From assembly GCA_030835305.1 (NCBI GenBank), contig JAURPJ010000092.1:1-64000 (forward strand): DNA of 64,000 bases, in the 5' to 3' direction. The stretch's first letter is position 1; each line of letters starts with the position of its first letter. The position numbers were made by a program, and so were the translations under genes. This DNA is from Verrucomicrobiota bacterium. GTDB lineage: Bacteria; Verrucomicrobiota; Verrucomicrobiia; Verrucomicrobiales; Akkermansiaceae. Below the pieces are notes generated by a model. It had not been told where the DNA came from. It searched no databases and was given only the letters and a program-made list of their open reading frames with translations. Positions 3,253-28,214 of this stretch are shown here, piece by piece.

Positions 3253-3693
3253 ATGAACAGCGTAATGAAAAAGCTCCTACTGATCACACTCGCACTCGGC
3301 TTTGCCGTACCCGCACAGGCGGACATCCAGGCTGCTCCGGGAACCAAATACACTTCTTCACGCAAGCTCGGACGGGCTGTTGCAAACATTCTTTACGGAG
3401 TCATCGAGATTCCCGAGCAAATGGTCCGAAAATCCGAAACCGAAGGCCGTAAGTCCGGATGGTCCCACGGGGTTGTTGACGGTTCACGCCGTGCGCTCAA
3501 GCGTATCGGCTATGGAGTCTTCGAACTCGTCACATTCCACTGCCCTACTTATCACGGCACCTTCAAGCCGCCATACACCCGCTGTGGTGCTGATGACCGG
3601 ATTGAAATGAATCCTCGTGACGGCCTTTCCGAATTCCCACCCGAGCTTGGTTTTGAGACCTACTTCAGCCACTCGCGCTCCCAGAAGTGGTAA
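3253..3693 (+). CDS. Exported TIGR04073-type (exosortase system-associated) protein
   Basis: A 146-residue protein with a clear signal peptide (MKKLLLITLALGFAVPAQA from the second Met). The mature part has the pattern I know from the TIGR04073 family of Verrucomicrobia and relatives: SRKLGRAVANILYGVIEIPEQ, then a Gly-rich helical hairpin, then RIGYGVFELVTFHCP. Function is unknown; the family was named for co-occurrence with exosortase sorting. The ATG at 3253 has GGTGGA just upstream and was chosen; ATG 3265 is equally possible. A strong hairpin terminator follows the stop. The decayed integrase lies divergently upstream. Confidence 0.75.
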   Translation: MNSVMKKLLLITLALGFAVPAQADIQAAPGTKYTSSRKLGRAVANILYGVIEIPEQMVRKSETEGRKSGWSHGVVDGSRRALKRIGYGVFELVTFHCPTYHGTFKPPYTRCGADDRIEMNPRDGLSEFPPELGFETYFSHSRSQKW

Positions 3694-8423: not shown

Positions 8424-10841
8424 ATGGCTACCATGCTTCAAAAGCTAATCCTCATCGGCCTCTCGTTGTCCTTGTTCGCCAGTGCACAGAAATCCACCGA
8501 GGCTCCCCTCCTGGTGAAGCCAAACCTTCCCCCACCCAATGCTCCCCTCGAGGAAAAGAAGGAAGAAGGATCAGCCGCTTCCAATGCCTCGGTTTTCAAC
8601 CAAGGCCTCGCTAGAACGATGACCATCGCCATTCCAGCCCCCCGCGGACTGATTCTTGATCGAGAAGGCCGTCCGCTGGCCCAAACCAAGATGGCCTATC
8701 ATCTCGCCCTTGATTTCACTGCTTACAAGGGTCCCGTTGACCCAAAGGTCGCGGTCGCCTGGGCACAGAATAAAATCGCTCAAGCCAACGCTCTCCTGAA
8801 GGGTGACGAAACCTACAGCGACGCAAAACTCGCAAACTACTACAGGCACCGCCGCTGGCTTCCCCGGAAGATTTCCCAAATCATCACTGAGTCCAAAGCC
8901 AGGAGCCTTGAAGGTAAGATTCCCGACGGCCTCACCCTCCTTCCGGTTTACCAGCGCTATTACCCTGAAAAAAGCCTCGCTGCCCACCTCATTGGATATG
9001 TCGGGGCCAAGACGGTTTTGCCTTCCGGCCCCATCAACGACGGCGACCCACTCTTTCAATCTGTCATGGGAAAATCCGGGTTTGAGCAAATCTTTGACCA
9101 AAAACTCAGTGGGGAGCCTGGGCTCAAAAAGATGATCTTTGATAAGAACGCGGACAAGATCCTCGATGAGCTCGTCAAGCGCCCCCGCCCGGGTGGCAAC
9201 GTGGTGACCACACTGGATCTTGATTGGCAAAGATATGCCGAAGGGGTTCTCCGGGAAGGCTGCAAGCGCGGCGCGTTTGTGGTCATCGACATCCAGTCAG
9301 GCGAAGTTCTAGTGATGGCCTCCCGCCCGACCTTCGACCTCAACGAGTTTGTTCCTTACATCACCACGGAGAGATACAAGGAACTTGAAGAAGATCCCGC
9401 CGCGCCTTTGTTCGGCCGGGCTTTCCAGTCAAACTATCCACCTGCCTCGACCTTCAAGCCGGTCGTTACTCTCGCTGCCATTAACAGCGGCTCGATTCGA
9501 CCGGAGCAGGAATTCGATTGCCCCTATAAAATCAAAATTGGGAGGAAATGGTTTCACAACCACTCCGTGGGCCACCAGGGCTGGGTCGAAGCCCGTCGCG
9601 CTCTCGCGAAATCAATCAACCCGTGGTTCTATCAGGTTGGAATCAAGACCGGCCCCCAGGGATTCATGTCCGTTGCCCGCCGACTCGGATACGGATCAAA
9701 GACCGGCCTTCCTCTCGTCGGGGAAGCAACCGGCAATGCTCCCACCGCAGATTACATCATGACTAAAATGGGGCGCTCGACCACCGACGGAGACACGGCC
9801 AACCTTTCAATCGGCCAAGGGTTCATGCTCGCTTCCCCACTGCAGGTCGCTCAATCCATGGCAGCCATCGGCAACGGAAATGTGCTCATGGAACTTCAAT
9901 TGATCCGGCAGATTCAAGACTTCCACGGTCGGGTCATGGAAGCCCCTACCTTCAAAAAAAGAAACGACCTCAATCTCTCGCCGACTGCTCTTAAGATCAC
10001 CCACGAGGGCATGCGTGACGTTGTCCATGCCAGCTACGGGACAGGAAGACGCGGCGATCTTGGTTTCACCACGATGTGCGGTAAGACCGGAACAGCCCAG
10101 TGGAAAGACAGCCCGGAACAAGGTCTGGCTTGGTTCTCAGGGTTTTTCCCTTATGACAATCCTCGCTATGCCTTTGCCGTCGTTTACGAAGGTTCGCCCG
10201 GAGAAAATGTCAGCGGTGGCCGCAAAGCCGCACCCATGGTCCAGCGGTTCTTCAGTAACTTCCGGACTGAGATCGAAGAAAATCTCAAACCTGCCGCACG
10301 CGCTTTGATCGTCAGCGAAGAGGACGGACAACCAATCGTCCATGAAAACATAATTCCAAAGGCCATCATCGTTGAAGATGAAGAAGCTCTGATGAACGGG
10401 CCCGAAGTTCCCGTGCCCATGCCGGAGAGCACGGAAATTCCCGCAGACATCCCCAAGGCGATTCCCGTCGTTCCGGCAGATGACCCCAACAACAAGCCTC
10501 CACTCCCAACCGTCCCCTGTGAAGAAGTGATTCCAAAGGCCATTATCGTTGAAGACGAAGAAGCTCTGATAAACGAGCCCGAAGTTCCCATACCCATGCC
10601 AGAGAGCACGGAAATTCCCACAGACATCCCCAAGGCGATTCCCGTCGTTCCGGCAGATGACCCCAACAACAAGCCTCCACTCCCAACCGTCCCCGGTGAA
10701 GACGCGATTCCAAAGGCCATTATCGTTGAAGACGAAGAAGCTCTGATAAACGAGCCCGAAGTTCTCGCGCCCATGCCGGAGAGCACGCAAATCCCCGCCG
10801 ACACACCGAGGGAGGCCCCTGAAATTGTGGGCAATCGCTAA
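8424..10841 (+). CDS. mrdA: Penicillin-binding protein 2 (transpeptidase) with a repeated acidic tail
   Basis: An 805-residue class B penicillin-binding protein, which cross-links peptidoglycan during elongation. A signal or anchor segment (residues 5-21) is followed by the dimerisation domain (PRGLILDREGRPLA at 73-86, ESKARSLEGKIPDG later). The transpeptidase has STFK (342-345, nucleophile Ser), SIN (397-399) and KTG (554-556). The domain ends near residue 625. The last 160 residues or so are unusual: a 59-residue Pro/Glu-rich repeat present about 2.6 times. PBP2 of other bacteria is about 600-650 residues and lacks this. No rodA gene is adjacent. Confidence 0.93.
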   Translation: MATMLQKLILIGLSLSLFASAQKSTEAPLLVKPNLPPPNAPLEEKKEEGSAASNASVFNQGLARTMTIAIPAPRGLILDREGRPLAQTKMAYHLALDFTAYKGPVDPKVAVAWAQNKIAQANALLKGDETYSDAKLANYYRHRRWLPRKISQIITESKARSLEGKIPDGLTLLPVYQRYYPEKSLAAHLIGYVGAKTVLPSGPINDGDPLFQSVMGKSGFEQIFDQKLSGEPGLKKMIFDKNADKILDELVKRPRPGGNVVTTLDLDWQRYAEGVLREGCKRGAFVVIDIQSGEVLVMASRPTFDLNEFVPYITTERYKELEEDPAAPLFGRAFQSNYPPASTFKPVVTLAAINSGSIRPEQEFDCPYKIKIGRKWFHNHSVGHQGWVEARRALAKSINPWFYQVGIKTGPQGFMSVARRLGYGSKTGLPLVGEATGNAPTADYIMTKMGRSTTDGDTANLSIGQGFMLASPLQVAQSMAAIGNGNVLMELQLIRQIQDFHGRVMEAPTFKKRNDLNLSPTALKITHEGMRDVVHASYGTGRRGDLGFTTMCGKTGTAQWKDSPEQGLAWFSGFFPYDNPRYAFAVVYEGSPGENVSGGRKAAPMVQRFFSNFRTEIEENLKPAARALIVSEEDGQPIVHENIIPKAIIVEDEEALMNGPEVPVPMPESTEIPADIPKAIPVVPADDPNNKPPLPTVPCEEVIPKAIIVEDEEALINEPEVPIPMPESTEIPTDIPKAIPVVPADDPNNKPPLPTVPGEDAIPKAIIVEDEEALINEPEVLAPMPESTQIPADTPREAPEIVGNR
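10353..10806 (+). repeat. 177-bp tandem repeat (2.6 copies) in the PBP2 tail
   Basis: Three copies start at 10353, 10530 and 10707, exactly 177 bases apart and in frame. Each encodes 59 residues starting IPKAIIVEDEEALxNxPEV and ending around PADDPNNKPPLPTVP. Copies one and two are full length; the third diverges after about 100 bases. Near identity at DNA level implies recent duplication or gene conversion. Confidence 0.92.
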
Positions 10842-16662: not shown

Positions 16663-17288
16663 GCTCACTGAAGTTTGAAGACCTTGGTGCGGATCTTGAT
16701 TTTAAGCAGATCTGGGACCTTCAAGAGGACCTCGTGCAACGTCGGCGTGCCCAAACGATCGAGGATACCATTCTCCTCCTCGAGCATTCTCCGGTTTACA
16801 CGATCGGACGGACCCGCGATAAAACCAGCCTCGAAGTTCATCAAAACCTCCCCCATCCCGTCGTCGAAATCAACCGCGGTGGACAAGGAACCTTCCATGG
16901 CCCCGGCCAACTCGTGGGCTATGCCATTCTCGACCTCGCCAGACGAGAGAAGGATCTCCACCTTCACCTCAGGAATTTGGAGGAAGCCATCATTATTTCT
17001 CTAAATGCTTTGGGAATCAACGCAAAGCGGCGCGACGGACTGACCGGAGTGTGGGTCGAAAATCGTAAGATCGCTTCTCTGGGAGTTGGTGTCCGCTCAT
17101 GGGTGACTCTTCACGGTTTTGCTTTGAACGTGCAGGCCATCTCTCTTCCACCATTTCAAATGATTACCCCCTGTGGTATTAATGGTGTCACTATGACAAG
17201 CGTCGAAACTGAAATCAATCGCCCGGTTTCCATGAAGGGAATGAAGCGGGTTATGACCGAAGCGCTTGGAGAAATCTTCACCAAGTAG
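16659..17288 (+). CDS. lipB: Octanoyl-[acyl carrier protein]:protein N-octanoyltransferase
   Basis: LipB moves octanoyl from acyl carrier protein to the lipoyl domains of dehydrogenase complexes, the first step of lipoate assembly. The 209-residue protein has the GGQGTFHGPGQLV loop (74-86), the catalytic Lys in ENRKIASLG (Lys137), and the catalytic Cys in ITPCGI (Cys172). The ATG overlaps the polX stop in an ATGA junction, which suggests translational coupling. lipA is not in the window. It converges with the AAA ATPase gene 12 bases downstream. Confidence 0.95.
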   Translation: MSSLKFEDLGADLDFKQIWDLQEDLVQRRRAQTIEDTILLLEHSPVYTIGRTRDKTSLEVHQNLPHPVVEINRGGQGTFHGPGQLVGYAILDLARREKDLHLHLRNLEEAIIISLNALGINAKRRDGLTGVWVENRKIASLGVGVRSWVTLHGFALNVQAISLPPFQMITPCGINGVTMTSVETEINRPVSMKGMKRVMTEALGEIFTK

Positions 17289-17300
17289 TCATTCCGACTG

Positions 17301-18869
17301 CTAGTGAGTATCCTTGGCATCATGCCTCTCGCGAAATTTGCGAAGCAAATCATCGATACTATCGCCATCTCCCCCATCGATCGCCAGCGGCGGAGGGGTC
17401 GCCCTGGCCTGATTGGCGACCTCGGCTTCCCGGGAAGGATCGGCAATCCGAAAGGGGCTCTCGATTGCGGTATTCACCAGTGGAGCAGGTGGAGCAGGTG
17501 GAGCAGGTGGAGCAGGTGGAACTCGAACCGAATCACTTTCCTGTCGAATCCGCTGCACCAAATATTTTCGCGGGATTGCGGCCCTCCTGACAGGTTTCGG
17601 CGGATACTTGATCTTCAATACAGGACTGGCAAAGGGCACGTCCGGTTTCCCGGCCTCAGTCAAATCAGTTTCAACCATCTTCTTCGCCGGGACTTCGGCG
17701 AAACCAATATCCTTGGCTTGGAGCACGCTGACATCGGGCGTCTCGGAAACTGCCGGGACCGGATCCATTGCCAGCTCTGGCGTGCCCCAGACATCCCGCG
17801 CGGCACGGAGAACGGCCCTCGGATAGAGGTCGCCCCGATCGAGTTGGATCTTCTGACGGAGATCCTCCGCCCCGTCCGGGTCACGGGTTTTCAAAAGGGC
17901 CACCATGCTCCCCTCATCAATAGCCTTCAATCGAATTACCGAGTCTTCAAAACGATCCTGCATTCCAAGTGGAATTCGTCGGGCGAAAGTAGATTCCCAC
18001 ACATCATCGTTCACTGAGAAAATCACCTTGAGCCGAGGCGCAGCCTGCCTCAAAGCCACGAGGGAATTTGCAACGCGAAGGGCCGCTTCGCTATCACCGA
18101 ACAAGCCATCCATCTCATCCATCACCAGAACCACATTCTCGGTCGTCGTGATCAACTTTAAAAAAGAGATAAGCGCCCCATGACTGCCCGTTCCTGTCTG
18201 CGGCTGGCTTTCCTCCCCGAAAACCGTATTGAGCAATTCGTGATTCCGCCTCCCTTTTCCGACCGACGTCATGGCATATCGAGACAAGACGGAAAACCAA
18301 AGCGACAGATCAGCCGACACCCCGCCACAACTCTGGCCGAGCACCGTAACCAGCCGGGGCGAGAGAGCTGCAAACTGAGCTTTCACCCATTGAGCAACAG
18401 CTGCCGATTCTTTCTGAAAATCAAAAACTTCCTCCGGGCGTTCGCGGAGGCTCCGCAGTGACTCCGTTCGATTCGGGCTGGGAACCTCACCCGATTCCAC
18501 CAATGGGATCAGGGCACTGGCCAGAATGCGGCGCACACTAAAATCCAACCCAGTCAGCTCTCTTTTACCGGGAAACGGGACTGTCAGCTGATCAAGAATT
18601 CGTCCCAAAATCTCCTTCTCGTCAATCCGGTATTCCGCCGGAAGTTCGACGGGAACCATCACGGAAGCCCCCCGGAGTTCCTCCCGCAATCGAGAAAGAA
18701 GCATCGTTTTACCATACCCCGCTCGGGGGGCACGGAGGGAAATCAAAACGCCCTCATCACCGGTTGCGAGATGTTTCAATTGCTTAAACTCCTTCCGATG
18801 CAGGCTTTCGACGAGTGGACTCATCGGGCCTTCAAATGATTCGAAGTTGGAACTAAAAGGATTTTTCAT
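17301..18869 (-). CDS. AAA-type ATPase, last gene of the secretin operon
   Basis: A 522-residue P-loop ATPase. The Walker A is a variant, APRAGYGKT (47-55), and the Walker B is VVLVMDE (246-252), followed by a sensor-like strand VIFSVNDD (about 284-291). The N-terminal 390 residues resemble STAND/ORC-like ATPases that load or remodel complexes. The C-terminal part is Pro-rich linker with a PPAP repeat and ends in a charged helix. No signal or membrane segment is seen, so it should be cytoplasmic. It lies 50 bases behind the single-pass membrane protein gene and shares its direction with the secretin. By analogy with GspA/ExeA, which power secretin assembly, it may serve the secretin; that is inference. 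Confidence 0.65.
   Translation of the reverse strand: MKNPFSSNFESFEGPMSPLVESLHRKEFKQLKHLATGDEGVLISLRAPRAGYGKTMLLSRLREELRGASVMVPVELPAEYRIDEKEILGRILDQLTVPFPGKRELTGLDFSVRRILASALIPLVESGEVPSPNRTESLRSLRERPEEVFDFQKESAAVAQWVKAQFAALSPRLVTVLGQSCGGVSADLSLWFSVLSRYAMTSVGKGRRNHELLNTVFGEESQPQTGTGSHGALISFLKLITTTENVVLVMDEMDGLFGDSEAALRVANSLVALRQAAPRLKVIFSVNDDVWESTFARRIPLGMQDRFEDSVIRLKAIDEGSMVALLKTRDPDGAEDLRQKIQLDRGDLYPRAVLRAARDVWGTPELAMDPVPAVSETPDVSVLQAKDIGFAEVPAKKMVETDLTEAGKPDVPFASPVLKIKYPPKPVRRAAIPRKYLVQRIRQESDSVRVPPAPPAPPAPPAPLVNTAIESPFRIADPSREAEVANQARATPPPLAIDGGDGDSIDDLLRKFRERHDAKDTH
17482..17520. repeat. Nine-base tandem repeat (about 4.3 copies) in the AAA ATPase gene
   Basis: GGAGCAGGT repeats in frame on the plus strand; on the coding (minus) strand it encodes repeated Pro-Pro-Ala. 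The copies are exact, so copy number may vary between strains. It lies in the disordered linker and should not disturb the ATPase fold. Confidence 0.9.
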
Positions 18870-18919
18870 CTTTTCGTGAAGTCTGGTGGGACAGATGGAT
18901 CCTGAAAGAAAAAATCAAC

Positions 18920-20548
18920 CTATTCGCCCTCAAGAGGTTTGAGTGGATCTGGAATAAGCCCTCCCTCTTCCACTGGTCTGAGAAAATTTTCCCAAATCTT
19001 ATCCTCCGTACCACCGGTCGAATTATCACTTGGGAGAGTTGTGGAATCCACGCCAATCACCTGAAGAAATGTATCCGTGGGCTGATCAAATGTGCCGCCG
19101 ACATCAAAGCTAAAATTCACAAGCCCGGTTGTATCGGATCCAACCAGATGAGGGCTATTCTTGAATCGATCCTGACTGGAAAGATAAAATCGATTGATGA
19201 AAATCTCAAAACGACCTCCAATTCTCCCATCATTCGCAACGACAAGGCTACCTTTCAAGGACACCTTCCCCTTCTCAGAGAGTTCAAAGTTTTCTAGAGC
19301 CACACCCTCCGGCCTTACTCTAACCGTCCCCACGATTGGCGAATTGGTAATCCCTTCGTGGAATTCCAGAATGTCCAAATTATGATCGGGAAACAAGGAA
19401 TGCAGGTTCGCCAAAAACGGGAGTCGCATCATCTTGGATGAGCTCGCCTGTAGATCGATTTCGACTTCGTCGAAGTAGTCATTACCAACCGTAAAATGAA
19501 CCTTTCCGCTCGAGGCCACGATCGAACCAGTGAAAAAACGTGAGAGTTGCTTGCCGACCAAAACACCCATTGGGAACTTTTCCGTGGCAATTTCCAGGGT
19601 CGATTTCCGACCCGGCTCCAACAAGATTTCCCCGCTCAACTCCAAATTCGATGCCAATGAAATTCCATCGTCGGTCGGATGCTTGAGGGACAAGGACACC
19701 AAATTCAAGACGCCATCGTTAAATCGAATTACGCCCTTGGAGACGGGAAATTCCTCCCAACCATCAACACGGAACGCTCCTTCATCCAGAGTGACCTGGT
19801 AACCGTCTCCTCCGACATAGGAAAAGATGGCACTCACATCAGAGAAGCCAATGGGGGCATCCGTTCCGAACAAAACATCAAGCGAACTACAGTAATATTG
19901 GTCGAAGCCGAACGGGAATTCGTCCTCATCCAGAGATTCACCTGATCCTCCGACAGCTGTTGGCATTGCGAGCATCAAAAGGCCTTTTTTACCCCCAATC
20001 TCCAGCCCACTTGGCCGGGCTCCCAGGTAATTTAGGAATCTCACGTCTCCTTTGATCGAATTCAACTCCAGACTACGCACAAAAGACGACTGGTCCCACT
20101 TAAAGTTTGCTTCCTTGAGCGAGACTGAAAAGGGCAATCGTTTCAACCCCTTGAGTTCGACCTCGGCTCCGCTCCACTCGGAAGCCTGTTGGGCAAGTTT
20201 GTCACGATGCCCCTTGCTGTTTTGCATCAGGATCAAAAACAGAACGGAGAGAAAAAGAACCAGAACCAGAGTTGCCGCGATCACCACCTTGACGAGGAGA
20301 CGTTTCTTCTCCCCCTCTGGGGTGAATTTGTTAGGTTGCTCGGTACGCCTTCTCCGGCGCTTCACCTTCCGTGCGATCGTCCCGTCGGAACGGGTCACCA
20401 TCTCACCCTGTGCCTCTTTCTCACGCTCCTTGTCGCGGAGCGCCTTCATCATCTCATCGAGCGAATACTGCTCCTTTTCCGGTCCCGAGGGAAAGGAGTT
20501 TAAATCATCTTCGGGAAGGCGGGAACGAGGGGGGAGATTCGTGCTCAT
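18920..20548 (-). CDS. Single-pass inner-membrane protein, AsmA-like periplasmic part
   Basis: A 542-residue protein with a charged cytoplasmic N-terminus of about 85 residues (including KVKRRRRR at 61-68), one transmembrane helix (about 87-108, VVIAATLVLVLFLSVLFLIL) and a periplasmic part of about 430 residues rich in beta strands. Segments such as SLKGSLVVANDGRIGGRFEIFIN recall AsmA/TamB-type lipid-bridging proteins, but similarity is by style only. Its ATG overlaps the secretin stop (TGATG), so the two are translationally coupled. It could be the inner-membrane partner that links the AAA ATPase to the secretin. Confidence 0.65.
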   Translation of the reverse strand: MSTNLPPRSRLPEDDLNSFPSGPEKEQYSLDEMMKALRDKEREKEAQGEMVTRSDGTIARKVKRRRRRTEQPNKFTPEGEKKRLLVKVVIAATLVLVLFLSVLFLILMQNSKGHRDKLAQQASEWSGAEVELKGLKRLPFSVSLKEANFKWDQSSFVRSLELNSIKGDVRFLNYLGARPSGLEIGGKKGLLMLAMPTAVGGSGESLDEDEFPFGFDQYYCSSLDVLFGTDAPIGFSDVSAIFSYVGGDGYQVTLDEGAFRVDGWEEFPVSKGVIRFNDGVLNLVSLSLKHPTDDGISLASNLELSGEILLEPGRKSTLEIATEKFPMGVLVGKQLSRFFTGSIVASSGKVHFTVGNDYFDEVEIDLQASSSKMMRLPFLANLHSLFPDHNLDILEFHEGITNSPIVGTVRVRPEGVALENFELSEKGKVSLKGSLVVANDGRIGGRFEIFINRFYLSSQDRFKNSPHLVGSDTTGLVNFSFDVGGTFDQPTDTFLQVIGVDSTTLPSDNSTGGTEDKIWENFLRPVEEGGLIPDPLKPLEGE

Positions 20549-22986
20549 CAGCGATCGCGGTAGGGATTTCCTGCTAGATCGGAAAGCTCGACATTTACAA
20601 AGATGATCACGGCACGCTTCTCAACCGAAATTCCGTTACTCTTAAAAATCCTTCCAACCAAAGGAAGGTCACCCAAAATGGGCACTTTGTCCTGAATTTC
20701 TTTTCGAATTTCCTGAATCAATCCCCCCATGACTACCGTCTGGCCATCCACGATCCGCACGCTGGTATTGCCCCTCGTCGTCCGGAAGAGCGGCTTGAGG
20801 ATGGCATTCGGGGTGATCTCGCCGAAAACACTTTGAGTTGCGACGGTCTGATTCACAAAATCAATGGTGGTATTGTCCGTCGAACCCACAATCGGAGTGC
20901 CATAGTTAATAAAACCCTCAAAATCGGTGACGACTGGATTTACCGACACTTCGATGATCTTGCGGTCCGGCCCGACTTGGGGAAGAACCTCAAGCGAGAC
21001 TCCGAGATTCCGATAGATAAAATTAGTAGGAGTCGCCGGAGTGACAGGAATGGTTCCGCCACCACCAACCTGATTCGGAATTTGAGGAGGCTCAAACTCC
21101 TCGGGATATGGAAATTCGACCACCGACTGAACCACCGCATTTTGACCGGAGCGAGTCACAACTTCCGGGCGCACCATCACATCTGCGCCTTTCTTTTGGG
21201 AGAGTCCCCTCATCAGGACTTCGTGAGCCGTATTGTCGATAATTCCTCGCAGACTGATCACGCCCGGAGCTCGCGTTCCTGAGGTATCCGGAGTAGATGG
21301 CAGCCGGATATTGGCAGAGGAATTCCCGAACCCGTCATTGGAAACGACTCCGGAAGTGGCAGGAGGAGAAACCCTCTTGAGCAATGCGTCAAGTCCATCG
21401 GTCGTTCCTAAAAGCTGTCCGCTGCGGTTTCCCGAAGTCACCGGACGCCCCCCGACCATATCGGCGATTGGAGAACCTGTTCCTGTAGTTCCACCCGAAA
21501 GAATCCCATGTTCACCGACATTGAACTGCCCGAGCATTACATCAAACTCCAGCTCTTCCAGTTGTTCCTGGCTGATGTCAACGATGGTCGTCCGCACTGT
21601 CACAATCAACGGCTCGTTCTTCGCCAAGTCAGCAACGATCGCCTCAACGAGCTGCATGTTCGCTACCGTATTCCGCACGATGAGCTTGTTTGTATTCGAA
21701 TTATAAACGGCGCTTGCTCCCTCGGGGAAACTCACGTCGTAAGCCTGGAGCTTCTCTTTTGCGGAAAGTTTCTTTGCAATCAATCCTCCCTCGTCGGGAT
21801 TGTCACCAAACGGATCATCGTCCTCCTCGGCCTTACCAACAGAGCCACCTGTCAAAAAGTCAGGTGGAACCGTAAATTCCCGGCGAACCAAGGTCGGATC
21901 CGAAAACCCGGCGGCATTGATCACGACCGCAAAGTCATCCACGCGGAAGGTCGTGCCCGATGCCTCGGTAATCAGCTTTAAAACCTCGGCGAGTGGAACA
22001 TTGCGAAGAGTCAAATTGATTCGGGAATCACGGATCTTCTTAACCTCTGGCATCGTTTCGTTCCCCAGCTGCACCACGAAAGGAATCCCCTTTTTGGAAT
22101 TATCCAGAGTGGTATTATCTGCCTGCACGGCAACGGCCCTTAAAAAATCAACAGCCTCATCAAGGGTCGCACCATTAAGTTGAACCTGCGGAACCATGAT
22201 CGAATTTAGCTTTGCCTGAAGATTGGCCGCTTGGGCCAGTACCTCGGGAATATCATCTCCAATCTGCCCGGGCGCATTGACCGATGGAACCTTTTGCTCC
22301 CAAGCTGCCCCAACATCTTCCAGCATCTCGGCTTTCGCTTGATCACGAGCTGCTTCTGCATAGCCGGAATTCGCCCTGTTCACACGCTCCATTCCACGAC
22401 GTGCCGCCTTGTTGTATTTGTCGATACGGAGAATGTCTTCGTAGGTCATGTAGGCCCGATCAAACTGACCCAGATCGTAGTAGCTCTGAGCCTCATGGTG
22501 GAGACGACGAACCCTGTCCACGTTTGCAGTGTGCTCCGGAGTCAAGGCCGCTTCGTAGCGAATCGGATCGTCCATCTTTGCCAGGAAGGTCTTCAATTTG
22601 GGATTGTCCGGATCAACGATCTTGGTATCAGCAACCAAGGCCCTTGCGGCCTTCACATCACCCTTGCGAATCAAGTTCTGCGCTTGCACCAAAGACGCTT
22701 GCGAAAACCGCTGTAAAGTGGTTGCACGCAATCCCACAACCGCCTTGGCCCCTTTCGGAAGCTTGGACAAGGCCTCGGCGTACTTGTCAATCGCCGCCGG
22801 GTAATCATTCTCGAGATACAAATTATCGCCCTCTTCCAAAAGAGCATAGGCGTCGCGAGCTGCCACTGATCGAGCTGAAGTCTCTTTCTCTTTCGAGAGG
22901 ATGGAATCTTGCGCAAGAGCAGGCGCTCCACAGACCAGAAGGCCGGACAAAAGACTGCGCTGAAATTTGAGTCGTAGATTACTCAT
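20548..22986 (-). CDS. Secretin (GspD/PilQ superfamily), Amuc_1098-like
   Basis: An 812-residue outer-membrane secretin. A signal peptide (about 1-25, ending GAPALA) is followed by a TPR-like helical region (about 45-220). Next come N-domains (for example LNLTLRNVPLAEVLKLITEASG-type at about 325-350, and PEGASAVYNSNTNKLIVRNT later) and the C-terminal secretin channel (about 560-805), ending with the signature VPILGDLPLVGRIFKS. The helical region plus secretin layout is that of Amuc_1098-type type IV pilus secretins of Akkermansia. No pilM/N/O/P-like genes are adjacent here. Its stop overlaps the next start, beginning a three-gene unit. Confidence 0.88.
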   Translation of the reverse strand: MSNLRLKFQRSLLSGLLVCGAPALAQDSILSKEKETSARSVAARDAYALLEEGDNLYLENDYPAAIDKYAEALSKLPKGAKAVVGLRATTLQRFSQASLVQAQNLIRKGDVKAARALVADTKIVDPDNPKLKTFLAKMDDPIRYEAALTPEHTANVDRVRRLHHEAQSYYDLGQFDRAYMTYEDILRIDKYNKAARRGMERVNRANSGYAEAARDQAKAEMLEDVGAAWEQKVPSVNAPGQIGDDIPEVLAQAANLQAKLNSIMVPQVQLNGATLDEAVDFLRAVAVQADNTTLDNSKKGIPFVVQLGNETMPEVKKIRDSRINLTLRNVPLAEVLKLITEASGTTFRVDDFAVVINAAGFSDPTLVRREFTVPPDFLTGGSVGKAEEDDDPFGDNPDEGGLIAKKLSAKEKLQAYDVSFPEGASAVYNSNTNKLIVRNTVANMQLVEAIVADLAKNEPLIVTVRTTIVDISQEQLEELEFDVMLGQFNVGEHGILSGGTTGTGSPIADMVGGRPVTSGNRSGQLLGTTDGLDALLKRVSPPATSGVVSNDGFGNSSANIRLPSTPDTSGTRAPGVISLRGIIDNTAHEVLMRGLSQKKGADVMVRPEVVTRSGQNAVVQSVVEFPYPEEFEPPQIPNQVGGGGTIPVTPATPTNFIYRNLGVSLEVLPQVGPDRKIIEVSVNPVVTDFEGFINYGTPIVGSTDNTTIDFVNQTVATQSVFGEITPNAILKPLFRTTRGNTSVRIVDGQTVVMGGLIQEIRKEIQDKVPILGDLPLVGRIFKSNGISVEKRAVIIFVNVELSDLAGNPYRDR

Positions 22987-23966: not shown

Positions 23967-26900
23967 ATGATTTTGCTTTCGCCTCTCCACGCCCAGATCA
24001 CCTCCGGCCCATGTTCACGCCGTACCAGTATCGTTCTTTCCGAGATGCACTACCACCCTCCGGGCGAAGCCGTCGCAAATCGCGAGTTCATTGAACTCTA
24101 TAATTCCAGCCCCATCAGCGTCGATCTCTCCGGCTGGAAACTCCGGGGCGACGCCGACTTTGATTTCCCGGAAGGGATCAGACTTGAAGGAGGACAATTC
24201 CTCATCGTCGCTGCCGACCCCTCGCTTTTTGAGGAAGATGACATCACCGCCCTCGGCCCCTGGAGCGGCACCCTTTCCAATGGCGGAGGACGCGTCCGTT
24301 TGCGAAAGGCGTCCGGAGGAATCGTTCTCGAAACAAATTACAACGACAACACCAGCTGGCCTGCCGCCGCCGATGGTGCCGGGCATTCCCTCATTCTAAA
24401 AACTCCTTCGTACGGCGAATCCCGGAGAGAAGCGTGGGCCGCCAGTTACAACCACGGAGGATCACCCGGACGCTTTGATCCAATTTCCAGCGAGGCCCTC
24501 GACCAAATCGTCATCAGCGAAATACGCTCCAATAGCAACGCCGGTGAAGAAGACTTCGTAGAGTTTCACAATCCCGGTCAGAGCCCTGCCGACCTCTCGG
24601 GCTGTTTTTTATCACAAAAACCATCCTCCGCGGGTTACACTATTCCCCCCGGCACCATCATCGCACCCGGAGGGTATTTAGCCTTTCAGGGAAACGTTGC
24701 GGGATTTGAATTCGATTCGACCGGAGACAGCATCATCTTGCGAGCTCCCGATGGCCTCCGCGTCATTGCCTTCAGGCGTTTTACCGGACAAGCCGAAGAC
24801 CGCCCGTGGGGAGGCCTGACCCGTTGGCGCGAACTCTCCAGCCCAACACCGGGATCTTCCAACGCTCAAGAGTTTCAAGACAATCTGGTCATTAATGAAA
24901 TACACTACCATCCGATAGGTGGGACAAAAAAGGGAGAATTTATCGAACTCTTGAACCAAGGCTCTTTCCCTGTCAATCTGACTGGTTGGGAAATTAAGGG
25001 AGGAATCGGTTTCGAATTCGCCGACGGCACGAGCATCCCATCGGGAGGATTCCTGGTCATCGCCAAGGATCGAGAGGCGCTTCTAAATCTTTATCCCGGT
25101 CTCGCTCCTGAAAAGGTCTTGCGAAGCTTCTCAGGGAGCCTTTCGAATCAATCCGACCGGATTGAACTCGAGGACTCAAATAATCGGACAGTTGATGAAG
25201 TGACTTACTTTGACAGCGGGCGTTGGCCCTCACTCGCAGATGGCAGAGGCAGTTCACTCCAACTCATCGATCCAAGATCAGACAACAACGCCCCATCAAA
25301 CTGGCTCGCCCCAGATGAATCCGCAGGCGCTCGGACGGTCGTGATTGAACACACCGGCGTTCTTGACTTTGGACACCGTGCCACTCCGCAAGCCACCCGG
25401 TTCTTCGTCATGCTTCACGGCGCAGGTGAAGCCATCATCGACGACATCGAAGTCCTTGTGAACGGCAGCAACCTGGTCAGCAACGCCAGCTTTGATTCCG
25501 GCCTCAGTGGCTGGAGTCGCTTCGGAACCCACGCCCCGACATTTGCCGAAAACGGATCCATGCACTTGCTTGCGACCAATGGGGGCGACCTCGCCAATCT
25601 GGTCGAAACAACCCTGACCGCCCCGATCCTGCCCGGCACTACCGTCACCCTTCGCGCCTCCTGCCGCTGGGTCTCGGGAACTCCCGATATTCTTCTGGGT
25701 CTCAATGGGGGCTACCTTGAGGCACCGGGGAAAATGCCCGTGCCCACATCGACCGGTACACCTGGCTCGCCAAATGACGTCATCGGCAACACCGGCCCTA
25801 TCATCACCGGAGTTTCTCATTCCCCGCTTCTTCCCCAACCCGGAGAGCCGATTGCCATCCGCGCCCGTATCATTGATCCCGACAACGTTCTGAGCGCGCG
25901 GGTTCGCTACCGAATCGATCCCAATTCCTCTCTTTCCCAGATCGTGATGACCCATGAAGGAGACGGCATTTACTCCGCTACCATTCCAGCCCAACCCGCA
26001 GGAACGCTCGTCGCATTTCATATTGTCACCATCGATGACGCATCACCACGGGTGATCTCAAACTTCCCGGCAGAGGCCCCAGAAAGCGAATGTCTGATCC
26101 GGGTTGGCTCGCAGGACGAAGCCGGAGCTTTTAGCACGATGCACCTTTGGGCAACCAACGAAACCCTAACCGAGTGGCGAAATCGACCTCGGTCCAGCAA
26201 GCTTGAACTGGATGTCACTTTTGTTTCCGAAGGTCGCGTCTTTTACAATGTTGGAGCCTACTACGCGGGCAGTCAAAATGGCGTTTCAATCTACGATTCG
26301 CCCGTCGGGAATCCCACCGGCTACAACATTAAAATTCCCGGCGATGAGGTTTTTTTGAATGTCCAAAACCTGACCATTGATCGTGAGACCACCCGGGACC
26401 CAACCCGTCAACGCGAGCGTCTTCTCTTTTGGTTTTTGGAGAAACTCAAACTCCCCAATCTTCACCGGCGCTATGTTCATTTCTATTTCAACGGCTTTGA
26501 GCGAGACCAACTCATCATGGAGTCAGTTCAAAAGCCCAATCGCGAAATCATGTACCAGTGGTTTGAGGGCGACGGGCGACTCACCAAAACCGCGCCATGG
26601 TGGGAGTTCGATGGAAACAGCAACGTTATTCTGAGTGCGGGGACTGAGAGAAATCTCCTCCGACACCTGGTTTCGGAAGATGGCTCGATCAAACTCCCCC
26701 ATCATCGCTGGACGTGGACCCATGGCGCCGGACACGACGACGGCAACGACTTCTCCGGTATCATCGAGCTCATTGACGCGGCCCAATCACCACCTGATCA
26801 ACTGGTCCGCCGCATGAACGAGAAGGCGGAAATGCGCCAATGGATGCGCACCTTCGCCATGAATGATCTCGGTTCGTATTGGGACACCTTCGGCAATCAG

Positions 26901-28214
26901 GCCAACAAGAATGCTTACCTGTTTGAGTCACTCGAAACCGGAAAATCAAGTATCGTCACTTGGGACATGGACGTCGGCCTGGGAGTTTTTAACGACCCTG
27001 TGACCTATCCCCTTTTTCACCCAAACACTGAACCCAATGTCCAACGACTCTTCGACCAACCCGGGCTCGTTCGTGATTACTGGCAAGCCCTTGATGAATC
27101 GCTGAATACGTTCTTCACGGCTTCCGCAGGATCAGAGATCAGGGCAATTCTCCGGGAGACTTACGAAGCACTGACCACCAATGACGCAGCGGTCACTTCA
27201 CCTTTTGTTCCCAGCGGGCGAGCCGGACTGGCCGTCGACGACTGGATCAACCAACGCCGGGCCTTCATTCAAAATGAATTGAATGGAAAGGATTCCAGCT
27301 TCTCCGTTTCCGCACCCGCGAGTTCAGCGTCGCAAGTCGTCGAAATCACCGGAACCCTTCCATTGGCCACCACCAGGATCACCGCCAACGGACTTCCTCT
27401 CGCTCCAAACTACTCTACCATCACTAACTTTTCTGCAGAGCTGGCTCTCCAACCAGGCCCAAGTGAGATTCTCATTGAAGCTCTGAATCAAGACGGCATT
27501 TCCCTCGGATCTGAAATCCTCCACATTACCTTCACCGGCACCAGCCAGTGGGCTGATTTAAAAATCAATGAATGGATGGCCGCCAATCCCACCACCACCG
27601 GGATCGTGGATCCGGCCGATCAAGAGGCCGAAGACTGGATCGAAATCTTCAATCCAAGCTCCTCGCCCGTTTCGCTTGATGGCTGGTATCTCAGCGATGA
27701 TCCTGCCAATCCACTTAAGTTTGCGATTCCCGATGGCTTTATAATTCCCGCCAATGGATTCATTTTAATTTGGGCGGACGGTGAGCCGCGCCAAAACACC
27801 CCGGCTGTTCGCCAGGATATCCACACCAACTTCAGACTCTCCGCTGGCGGAGAGGACATCATCCTGACCGCTCCCGATGCAAGCGAGATCGATGCCGTCA
27901 CCTTCCCGGAACAAGCATCAGGAATTGCCCGCTTGCGTGCAATCGATGGCTCGGATCTCTTTACCTACTCGATCGCTCCAACCCCGCGACTCTCCAATGG
28001 ATCACCCCCGACCCGCGAAGCCGTTGAAGTCACGATAACAAAAAACGTTATCAACTTCTCCTCAAACCCGGGCGAAGTCTACGAAATGCAAACCTCCCGC
28101 AATCTTGCACATTGGGAAAGTTCAGACGCCCCCGTCGTGGGAAATGGCAGCACGGTTGAGTTTCCCATTCCGGCAGATCGAGGCCCCCTCTTTTTCCGAA
28201 TCATCACCCACTAA
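23967..28214 (+). CDS. Large exported lamin-tail/CotH-type protein
   Basis: A 1415-residue exported protein. Four lamin-tail-like domains begin at about residues 21 (IVLSEMHYHP), 180 (IVISEIRSN), 306 (LVINEIHYHP) and 1196 (LKINEWMAANP), each with a D/NLSGWxL-type core. Between 746 and 1090 is a CotH kinase-like region, with YLFESLETGKSSIVTWDMD carrying the WDxD metal-binding motif at about 994. A beta-sandwich (440-580) and an Ig-like domain (600-690) lie between. Such proteins are typical of Verrucomicrobia and are taken to be surface or extracellular. The N-terminus is odd: the signal peptide seems to begin upstream of the first ATG. The next gene follows after 18 bases. Confidence 0.85.
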   Translation: MILLSPLHAQITSGPCSRRTSIVLSEMHYHPPGEAVANREFIELYNSSPISVDLSGWKLRGDADFDFPEGIRLEGGQFLIVAADPSLFEEDDITALGPWSGTLSNGGGRVRLRKASGGIVLETNYNDNTSWPAAADGAGHSLILKTPSYGESRREAWAASYNHGGSPGRFDPISSEALDQIVISEIRSNSNAGEEDFVEFHNPGQSPADLSGCFLSQKPSSAGYTIPPGTIIAPGGYLAFQGNVAGFEFDSTGDSIILRAPDGLRVIAFRRFTGQAEDRPWGGLTRWRELSSPTPGSSNAQEFQDNLVINEIHYHPIGGTKKGEFIELLNQGSFPVNLTGWEIKGGIGFEFADGTSIPSGGFLVIAKDREALLNLYPGLAPEKVLRSFSGSLSNQSDRIELEDSNNRTVDEVTYFDSGRWPSLADGRGSSLQLIDPRSDNNAPSNWLAPDESAGARTVVIEHTGVLDFGHRATPQATRFFVMLHGAGEAIIDDIEVLVNGSNLVSNASFDSGLSGWSRFGTHAPTFAENGSMHLLATNGGDLANLVETTLTAPILPGTTVTLRASCRWVSGTPDILLGLNGGYLEAPGKMPVPTSTGTPGSPNDVIGNTGPIITGVSHSPLLPQPGEPIAIRARIIDPDNVLSARVRYRIDPNSSLSQIVMTHEGDGIYSATIPAQPAGTLVAFHIVTIDDASPRVISNFPAEAPESECLIRVGSQDEAGAFSTMHLWATNETLTEWRNRPRSSKLELDVTFVSEGRVFYNVGAYYAGSQNGVSIYDSPVGNPTGYNIKIPGDEVFLNVQNLTIDRETTRDPTRQRERLLFWFLEKLKLPNLHRRYVHFYFNGFERDQLIMESVQKPNREIMYQWFEGDGRLTKTAPWWEFDGNSNVILSAGTERNLLRHLVSEDGSIKLPHHRWTWTHGAGHDDGNDFSGIIELIDAAQSPPDQLVRRMNEKAEMRQWMRTFAMNDLGSYWDTFGNQANKNAYLFESLETGKSSIVTWDMDVGLGVFNDPVTYPLFHPNTEPNVQRLFDQPGLVRDYWQALDESLNTFFTASAGSEIRAILRETYEALTTNDAAVTSPFVPSGRAGLAVDDWINQRRAFIQNELNGKDSSFSVSAPASSASQVVEITGTLPLATTRITANGLPLAPNYSTITNFSAELALQPGPSEILIEALNQDGISLGSEILHITFTGTSQWADLKINEWMAANPTTTGIVDPADQEAEDWIEIFNPSSSPVSLDGWYLSDDPANPLKFAIPDGFIIPANGFILIWADGEPRQNTPAVRQDIHTNFRLSAGGEDIILTAPDASEIDAVTFPEQASGIARLRAIDGSDLFTYSIAPTPRLSNGSPPTREAVEVTITKNVINFSSNPGEVYEMQTSRNLAHWESSDAPVVGNGSTVEFPIPADRGPLFFRIITH

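Follow-up and report, generated by a model that had tools for sequence, protein, structure and literature searches.

A second Amuc_1098-family secretin and a predicted AsmA-like membrane protein form a conserved gene pair in Verrucomicrobiota

The window examined here is a 64,000-nucleotide stretch of a Verrucomicrobiota genome of the family Akkermansiaceae (contig JAURPJ010000092.1, positions 1 to 64,000). It carries three adjacent genes on its minus strand, here called A, B and C. Gene A (20548–22986) encodes a second secretin of the Amuc_1098 family (812 aa), gene B (18920–20548) a single-pass inner-membrane protein with a predicted AsmA-like periplasmic groove (542 aa) and gene C (17301–18869) an AAA+ ATPase of 522 aa. 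Comparison with related genomes shows that A and B are a conserved core pair and that C is a lineage-specific, optional ATPase. We tentatively propose that A and B make up the core of an envelope-spanning system in which B would carry hydrophobic cargo from the inner membrane to the secretin, with C as an accessory.

The layout described in an earlier note on this DNA is borne out. The three genes are read in one direction, the stop codon of A and the start codon of B share one base (TGATG, within ...CGCTGATGAGC...) and 50 bases separate the stop of B from the start of C. We take all three to be real genes because they are conserved among relatives. As the note had also observed, no pilus or type II secretion gene lies beside them, judging by eye from the listed open reading frames of the window around them. 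Promoter and terminator scans of the locus gave signals at or below shuffle level. The source genome (G000) comprises 4.45 Mb in 133 contigs and is 97% complete. Our comparisons draw on 63 loci obtained by scanning 84,980 species, one genome per species, with a B profile, on the genomes of 58 relatives, and on 240 genomes of the phylum, including 20 of a genus (g3) that we call Akkermansia-type, the name being inferred.

The secretin and its partner gene

A is readily identified as a secretin, in agreement with the earlier note. Residues 595–800 (20587–21204; this and all features below within the three genes are on the minus strand) match the Pfam Secretin family PF00263 at 99 bits, against a cut-off of 27.5, and the protein scores 819 bits against NF042912, the NCBI Amuc_1098 family, above the curated cut-off of 750. 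Its score against the GspD model TIGR02517 is 74 bits, short of the cut-off of 351, and against the PilQ model 86 bits. The N-terminal part (approximately residues 46–215; 22342–22851) appears TPR-like from sub-threshold TPR matches.

What the note overlooked is that A is the second Amuc_1098-family secretin in a genome with three secretins. A better NF042912 match (1073 bits versus 819 for A) lies on another contig, C73, next to a gene of the Amuc_1099 family and apparent coaE and rho genes. The canonical arrangement is seen in a relative (L230), where genes for Amuc_1102, Amuc_1101 (PilM-like), Amuc_1100, Amuc_1099, the secretin, CoaE and Rho occur together and Amuc_1099 to Amuc_1102 pass their family cut-offs. 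Because the C73 copy scores higher and sits among canonical neighbors, A is the second copy: it is a paralogue with other neighbors, not the Amuc_1098 orthologue. At E 1e-6, no homologue of Amuc_1099–1102 was found beside A among the 83 loci scanned, of which 77 carry an A-type secretin.

A secretin match at E 1e-60 is present in all 58 relatives, and 51 have more than one, some being fragments. In a tree of 76 secretins (quick method, midpoint root; 26 of 102 rows removed by eye for thinning), the A–B type and the canonical type fall into separate clades within the window's family, f1. The Akkermansia-type A–B rows stand apart in the same tree, and two order-level A–B rows group with canonical secretins; the A-type rows require three changes of label, not one, and the canonical rows five.

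In all 63 loci, B is immediately preceded by an A-type secretin, present in a few cases as a contig-end fragment and in one (L089) as broken pieces. Since the loci were collected with B as the query, they show that B comes with A and not the reverse. B was found in 34 of the 58 relatives and C in 39. By match ends, A adjoins B in 30 of the 34; the exceptions comprise two contig ends carrying fragments of A, one broken copy and one partial B match with a secretin nearby. The pair extends to Luteolibacter pohnpeiensis (L131) and to the Akkermansia-type genomes, one of which is complete (2,664,102 bases); there B scores above 100 bits in 15 of 20 and follows A in five of five fetched loci. The genes beyond A–B vary, and include riboflavin kinase, S30AE/hibernation factor and topoisomerase IV types. 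In one Akkermansia-type locus (L193, 11349–12925), the next genes after the pair, in the same orientation, are a DUF374 gene, acyltransferase-like by eye, and a gene that looks FolD-like by eye.

The description of B as having a single helix and a large portion on the far side of the membrane also holds. The hydrophobicity profile has one helix, with a Kyte–Doolittle (KD) peak at residues 88–106, the structural model has a helix at 77–109, and together they place the transmembrane segment at approximately residues 86–108 (20225–20293). Two motifs precede it, both taken as cytoplasmic: a helix motif, YSLDEMMxxLRDxER (residues 28–42; 20423–20467; mean conservation 0.64), and a basic motif (residues 48–71; 20336–20407). 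The basic motif has a mean conservation of 0.78, compared with 0.41 for residues 110–500, and is the most conserved of four stretches measured. Scanned against 959 proteins of the fetched loci, it scores at least 25 in 68 proteins, all of them B-profile matches, and the best score among the others is 7.8. In Akkermansia-type genomes where no C was found, a looser form of the motif persists, which makes it unlikely that C is its sole partner.

Beyond the membrane, model strands define a predicted periplasmic β-groove domain (approximately residues 129–492; 19073–20164). The AlphaFold model, built from 54 sequences, has a mean predicted local distance difference test (pLDDT) score of 79 and a predicted template modelling (pTM) score of 0.69, and combines the long helix with a long run of strands. 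The top Foldseek match is the lipid-transfer protein LPD-3 (E 1.1e-6), the sole match under E 0.001, followed by TamB (E 3.1e-3); the template modelling (TM) scores of this predicted model with both are low. VIA-align pairs the model with Vps13 (Z 6.8; root-mean-square deviation (rmsd) 6.0 over 171 aligned residues), TamB (Z 6.8) and Atg2 (Z 5.9). The strands are amphipathic, with an alternation of 1.91 versus 1.28 in shuffled sequences, 9 of 2000 of which reach as high a value. Profile searches of the kind the earlier note proposed place B in no curated family above cut-off. Among the 54 B sequences there are weak matches to the AsmA-superfamily models DUF748 (13 sequences) and YhdP (7), and, for GspN, one to T2SSN (PF01203; E 0.053) and one to TIGR04411 (E 0.011), both weak. 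A search of the window genome with TIGR04411 at E 1e-5 was negative, and a sequence search of solved structures returned one chance match (E 0.65). From the predicted fold, B is probably an AsmA-like groove protein, a feature that the note had missed.

A protein in genome G069 that matches both TIGR04411 and the B profile was considered as an intermediate tying B to GspN, but no secretin lies near it, and it supports superfamily kinship of B and GspN only. The B profile matches 37 of the 240 phylum genomes, many of these matches being an orphan relative of B (L261–L271; ∼430–550 aa) from other families and classes of the phylum. Twelve stretches around such matches were fetched; the open reading frame is visible in 11, and a secretin was seen in none.

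The optional ATPase and the flanking genes

C has the marks of an AAA+ ATPase, although it falls just under the curated threshold for AAA_22 (26.9 bits, cut-off 27.0), and a match to that family at E up to 1 is found in 19 of 21 C sequences. The odd Walker A motif pointed out in the earlier note is confirmed: it reads PRAGYGKT (residues 48–55; 18705–18728), with Pro where the first Gly is usually found, and P48, R49, A50, G51, G53 and K54 are invariant among 21 aligned sequences. D251, N287 and R306 are likewise invariant, and E252 nearly so. The protein thus has a Walker A Lys (K54), a Walker B acid (D251), a sensor Asn (N287) and, in the model, an AAA+ fold with its core at residues 25–360 (17790–18797); it looks active. 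The C-terminal third is modeled as a low-confidence, Pro-rich linker followed by a conserved helix (residues 505–520; 17310–17357, DSIDDLLRKFRER in the window), the latter supported by alignment and model. The Pro-Ala run that the note had called variable is coded by a perfect 9-base tandem repeat of 4.6 copies (17480–17520), and it does vary among relatives.

Structural comparison places C among several kinds of AAA+ protein. The best Foldseek matches are to BrxC of the BREX system (E 1.9e-4), and the best VIA match is to Orc1/Cdc6 (Z 14.3; rmsd 4.6 over 228 residues), with TnsC lower (Z 13.0); a sequence search of solved structures gave no match for C. A role as a defense ATPase, suggested by BrxC, was rejected when PADLOC returned no match at E 0.01 for A, B or C. 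We also considered a motif common to the first helix of B and the last helix of C. The window's C tail ranks high against the B-helix motif, with 6 of 848 unrelated proteins scoring equally well, but most other C tails score poorly and the B tail is kept where no C was found, and a shared motif is no more than an idea. Longer homologues of C (L232, 721 aa, and L233, 931 aa; family f4) lie, by eye, between SMC-like and RodA/FtsW-like genes, with no secretin seen near them by eye.

The proposal of a three-gene unit stands for A and B and loosens for C, which directly follows B in 25 of the 63 loci. Four loci in this count (L087, L116, L129 and L130) break off at B or no more than 0.7 kb away, too early for C to be seen. 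LipB- and PolX-type genes come straight after B in six loci without C (L081, L082, L083, L085, L086 and L088), and B and C are on different contigs in G032 and G265. C is detected at E 1e-10 in 10 of the 240 phylum genomes and in none of the 20 Akkermansia-type genomes. Conservation of gene order, which the earlier note had put forward as a check, is thus kept for A–B and not fixed for C.

One locus nonetheless links the three genes. At 3564–9251 of L089, from a metagenome-assembled genome (G014), stops and frameshifts interrupt A, B and C alike, whereas the five neighboring genes in its flanks are all full length without a stop and of higher identity than A, B and C; the canonical secretin is intact in this genome. 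This suggests that A, B and C were lost there as a unit. It is one genome, and an assembly error is possible, though odd if confined to three genes. Because the three are jointly broken between intact flanks, A, B and C may act as one unit where C is present.

Downstream, a LipB-type gene converges with C, its open reading frame ending at 17288. Upstream of the operon lies a gene for a predicted surface protein of 1415 aa (23967–28214) with four lamin-tail domains and a CotH kinase domain. Further away in the window, a PBP2-type gene (8424–10841) has transpeptidase and dimerization domains and a 177-base tandem repeat (10353–10803; 2.5 copies, 92% match) that codes an acidic, Pro-rich tail at its C-terminus.

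What the pair may do

The proposed scheme starts from the gene order, the family of A, the predicted fold of B, the conservation of the pair and the joint breakage in one genome. A would form a ring in the outer membrane with its TPR and N domains in the periplasm. B, held in the inner membrane by its one helix, would extend a hydrophobic AsmA-like β-groove towards A and move phospholipid, or the acyl end of a lipoprotein, to the secretin while shielding acyl chains or phospholipid, much as GspN serves surface lipoproteins during type II secretion. The conserved tail ahead of the membrane helix could dock a common partner in the cytoplasm, conceivably a component of a shared pilus-type motor, and C, in some lineages, could serve as an accessory AAA+ ATPase on the cytoplasmic side of the same A–B unit. 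We regard this scheme as possible, and it is the account that we prefer.

Several observations weigh against it. The match of the B model to LPD-3 has a TM-score of 0.30 and an rmsd of 16.5, all VIA Z scores for B are below 8, with a phage-receptor complex and porins ranking higher, and every AsmA-superfamily sequence match of B is below its cut-off. A also occurs without an adjoining B, in L272 and, by profile, in L199 and L206 from another family. C is missing from the position after B in 38 of the 63 loci. Finally, in the 83 loci scanned, motor genes occur near A in three contigs only: GspE–GspF in L091 (the same contig as L303) and PilT/PilU in L204 and L272. The window genome does contain candidate motors elsewhere, namely a GspE–GspF–LolD-like set on contig C77 (all three names below cut-offs), two PilB/GspE-like ATPases with a PilC/GspF-like protein and a pilin on C7, and two loci of PilT-like ATPases. 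That one of these is shared at a distance with A–B is a guess. A broader claim is that, across Verrucomicrobiales and with Akkermansia-type genomes included, a pilus-family secretin outside type II secretion has B as its dedicated partner, and that the two on their own pass lipids or lipid-anchored proteins from the inner to the outer membrane, driven or gated by an AAA+ ATPase in some lineages; we consider it doubtful.

Two alternatives give B another role. In the first, B would be an assembly factor for A, its groove providing lipid or steering the secretin into the outer membrane where a pilotin would otherwise act, and A would be an alternative exit of a type IV pilus-like machine. The membership of A in a pilus secretin family fits this, as do the attachment of B to just one of two family secretins and the PilT/PilU twins near A in two lineages. 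Set against this, none of 30 secretins adjoined by CoaE has B as a neighbor, and these secretins are retained; A itself is also found without B. On balance we judge this alternative rather unlikely. In the second, B would mainly be a structural tether or alignment protein that joins an inner-membrane platform to A in place of PilN/O/P or GspC and carries no lipid. A single helix, a long domain beyond it and a very conserved tail before it would suit such a protein, and the Amuc_1099–1102 homologues that flank the canonical secretin were not found beside A among 83 loci. The predicted fold of B is, however, of a lipid-groove type with amphipathic strands, unlike alignment proteins as we know them, and a pure tether seems unlikely.

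The earlier note had suggested that C is a partner of the ExeA/GspA type, and a three-gene secretin-assembly unit, with C acting on A through B, would follow from this. The adjacency of C in part of the loci, the joint breakage in L089 and the AAA_22 matches point in that direction. The comparison with ExeA/GspA does not survive closer examination of C: no membrane helix is present, the sole KD peak (residues 232–250, at 1.55) covering a core helix and the Walker B strand, and no peptidoglycan-binding domain was found by Pfam at E up to 1 in 21 sequences. With C also missing after B in most loci, where lipB and polX may directly follow B, and not detected in the Akkermansia-type genomes, such a unit is improbable.

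The last alternative concerns type II secretion. Besides A and the canonical copy, the third secretin of the window genome is GspD-like (240 bits against TIGR02517, below 351 but above the 74 of A) and lies, away from A–B–C, in an operon that also holds genes resembling GspG, GspK and GspM; the four names are all below curated cut-offs. In 11 Akkermansia-type genomes there are two secretins in 10 and three in one; the non-A secretin is nearest the canonical profile in 11 of 11, with CoaE beside it in 6 of 11. Retention of A–B with two secretins indicates that the pair does not need a third, GspD-type secretin. In one genome (G011, contig C122; L303, 1867–12123), GspE–GspF–LolD-like genes do lie upstream of A–B–C. 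A and that GspF share a contig in 1 of 20 genomes of the genus with GspF, with a gap of 850 bases. As a separate observation, the gene after this GspF is LolD-like in 17 of 20 loci from the genus, which places a lipoprotein-type ATP-binding cassette (ABC) ATPase beside a type II-like motor. Although GspN is itself AsmA-like and the G011 arrangement is suggestive, the separate type II-like operon with its own GspD-like secretin and the presence of just two secretins, A-type and near-canonical, in 10 of 11 Akkermansia-type genomes led us to reject A as the missing GspD of the GspE–GspF motor and make it very improbable that A and B are the GspD and GspN of this genome's type II system.

Comparison with known systems

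A has the same family assignment as Amuc_1098/PilQ of Akkermansia muciniphila, with a TPR-like N-terminus and a secretin domain, and the Amuc_1098 protein is reported to be located in the outer membrane (PMC4960237). A differs in having no Amuc_1099–1102, CoaE or Rho around it and in being paired with B. The NCBI name ‘Amuc_1098 family type IV pilus outer membrane protein’ covers two paralogous secretins with different partners.

For B, the closest parallel is GspN. This AsmA-like protein is reported to be needed for type II export of lipoproteins in Acinetobacter baumannii, and PulN for PulA in Klebsiella pneumoniae (PMC12802150). A predicted inner-membrane helix, a predicted periplasmic β-groove and a link to a secretin gene are common to B and to GspN and PulN. 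B differs in its ∼85 residues before the helix, with their strongly conserved motif, and GspN is about half the length of B. The matches of B to T2SSN and TIGR04411 are weak, and type II genes (GspE–F) stand beside B in G011 only. TamB, YhdP and YdbH resemble B in predicted groove and topology; to our knowledge, these AsmA-like proteins are not encoded with a secretin. C shares with GspA/ExeA an AAA+ ATPase assignment in the AAA_22 range and a neighboring secretin gene, but it lacks the transmembrane helix after the AAA domain and the C-terminal peptidoglycan-binding domain.

Secretins, AsmA-like proteins and AAA+ ATPases are known kinds of protein. No description of a dedicated secretin/AsmA-like pair outside type II appears among the literature matches listed, and our literature search turned up no description of a lipid or lipoprotein conduit role for pilus-type secretins. 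A lipid or lipoprotein route to the outer surface is little explored in Verrucomicrobiota, and the coupling of A to B hints at a little-known path for fatty or fat-anchored cargo across the envelope. If the scheme is correct, the GspN result of late 2025 would reach beyond type II secretion to pilus-type secretins with a genetically linked lipid-groove protein.

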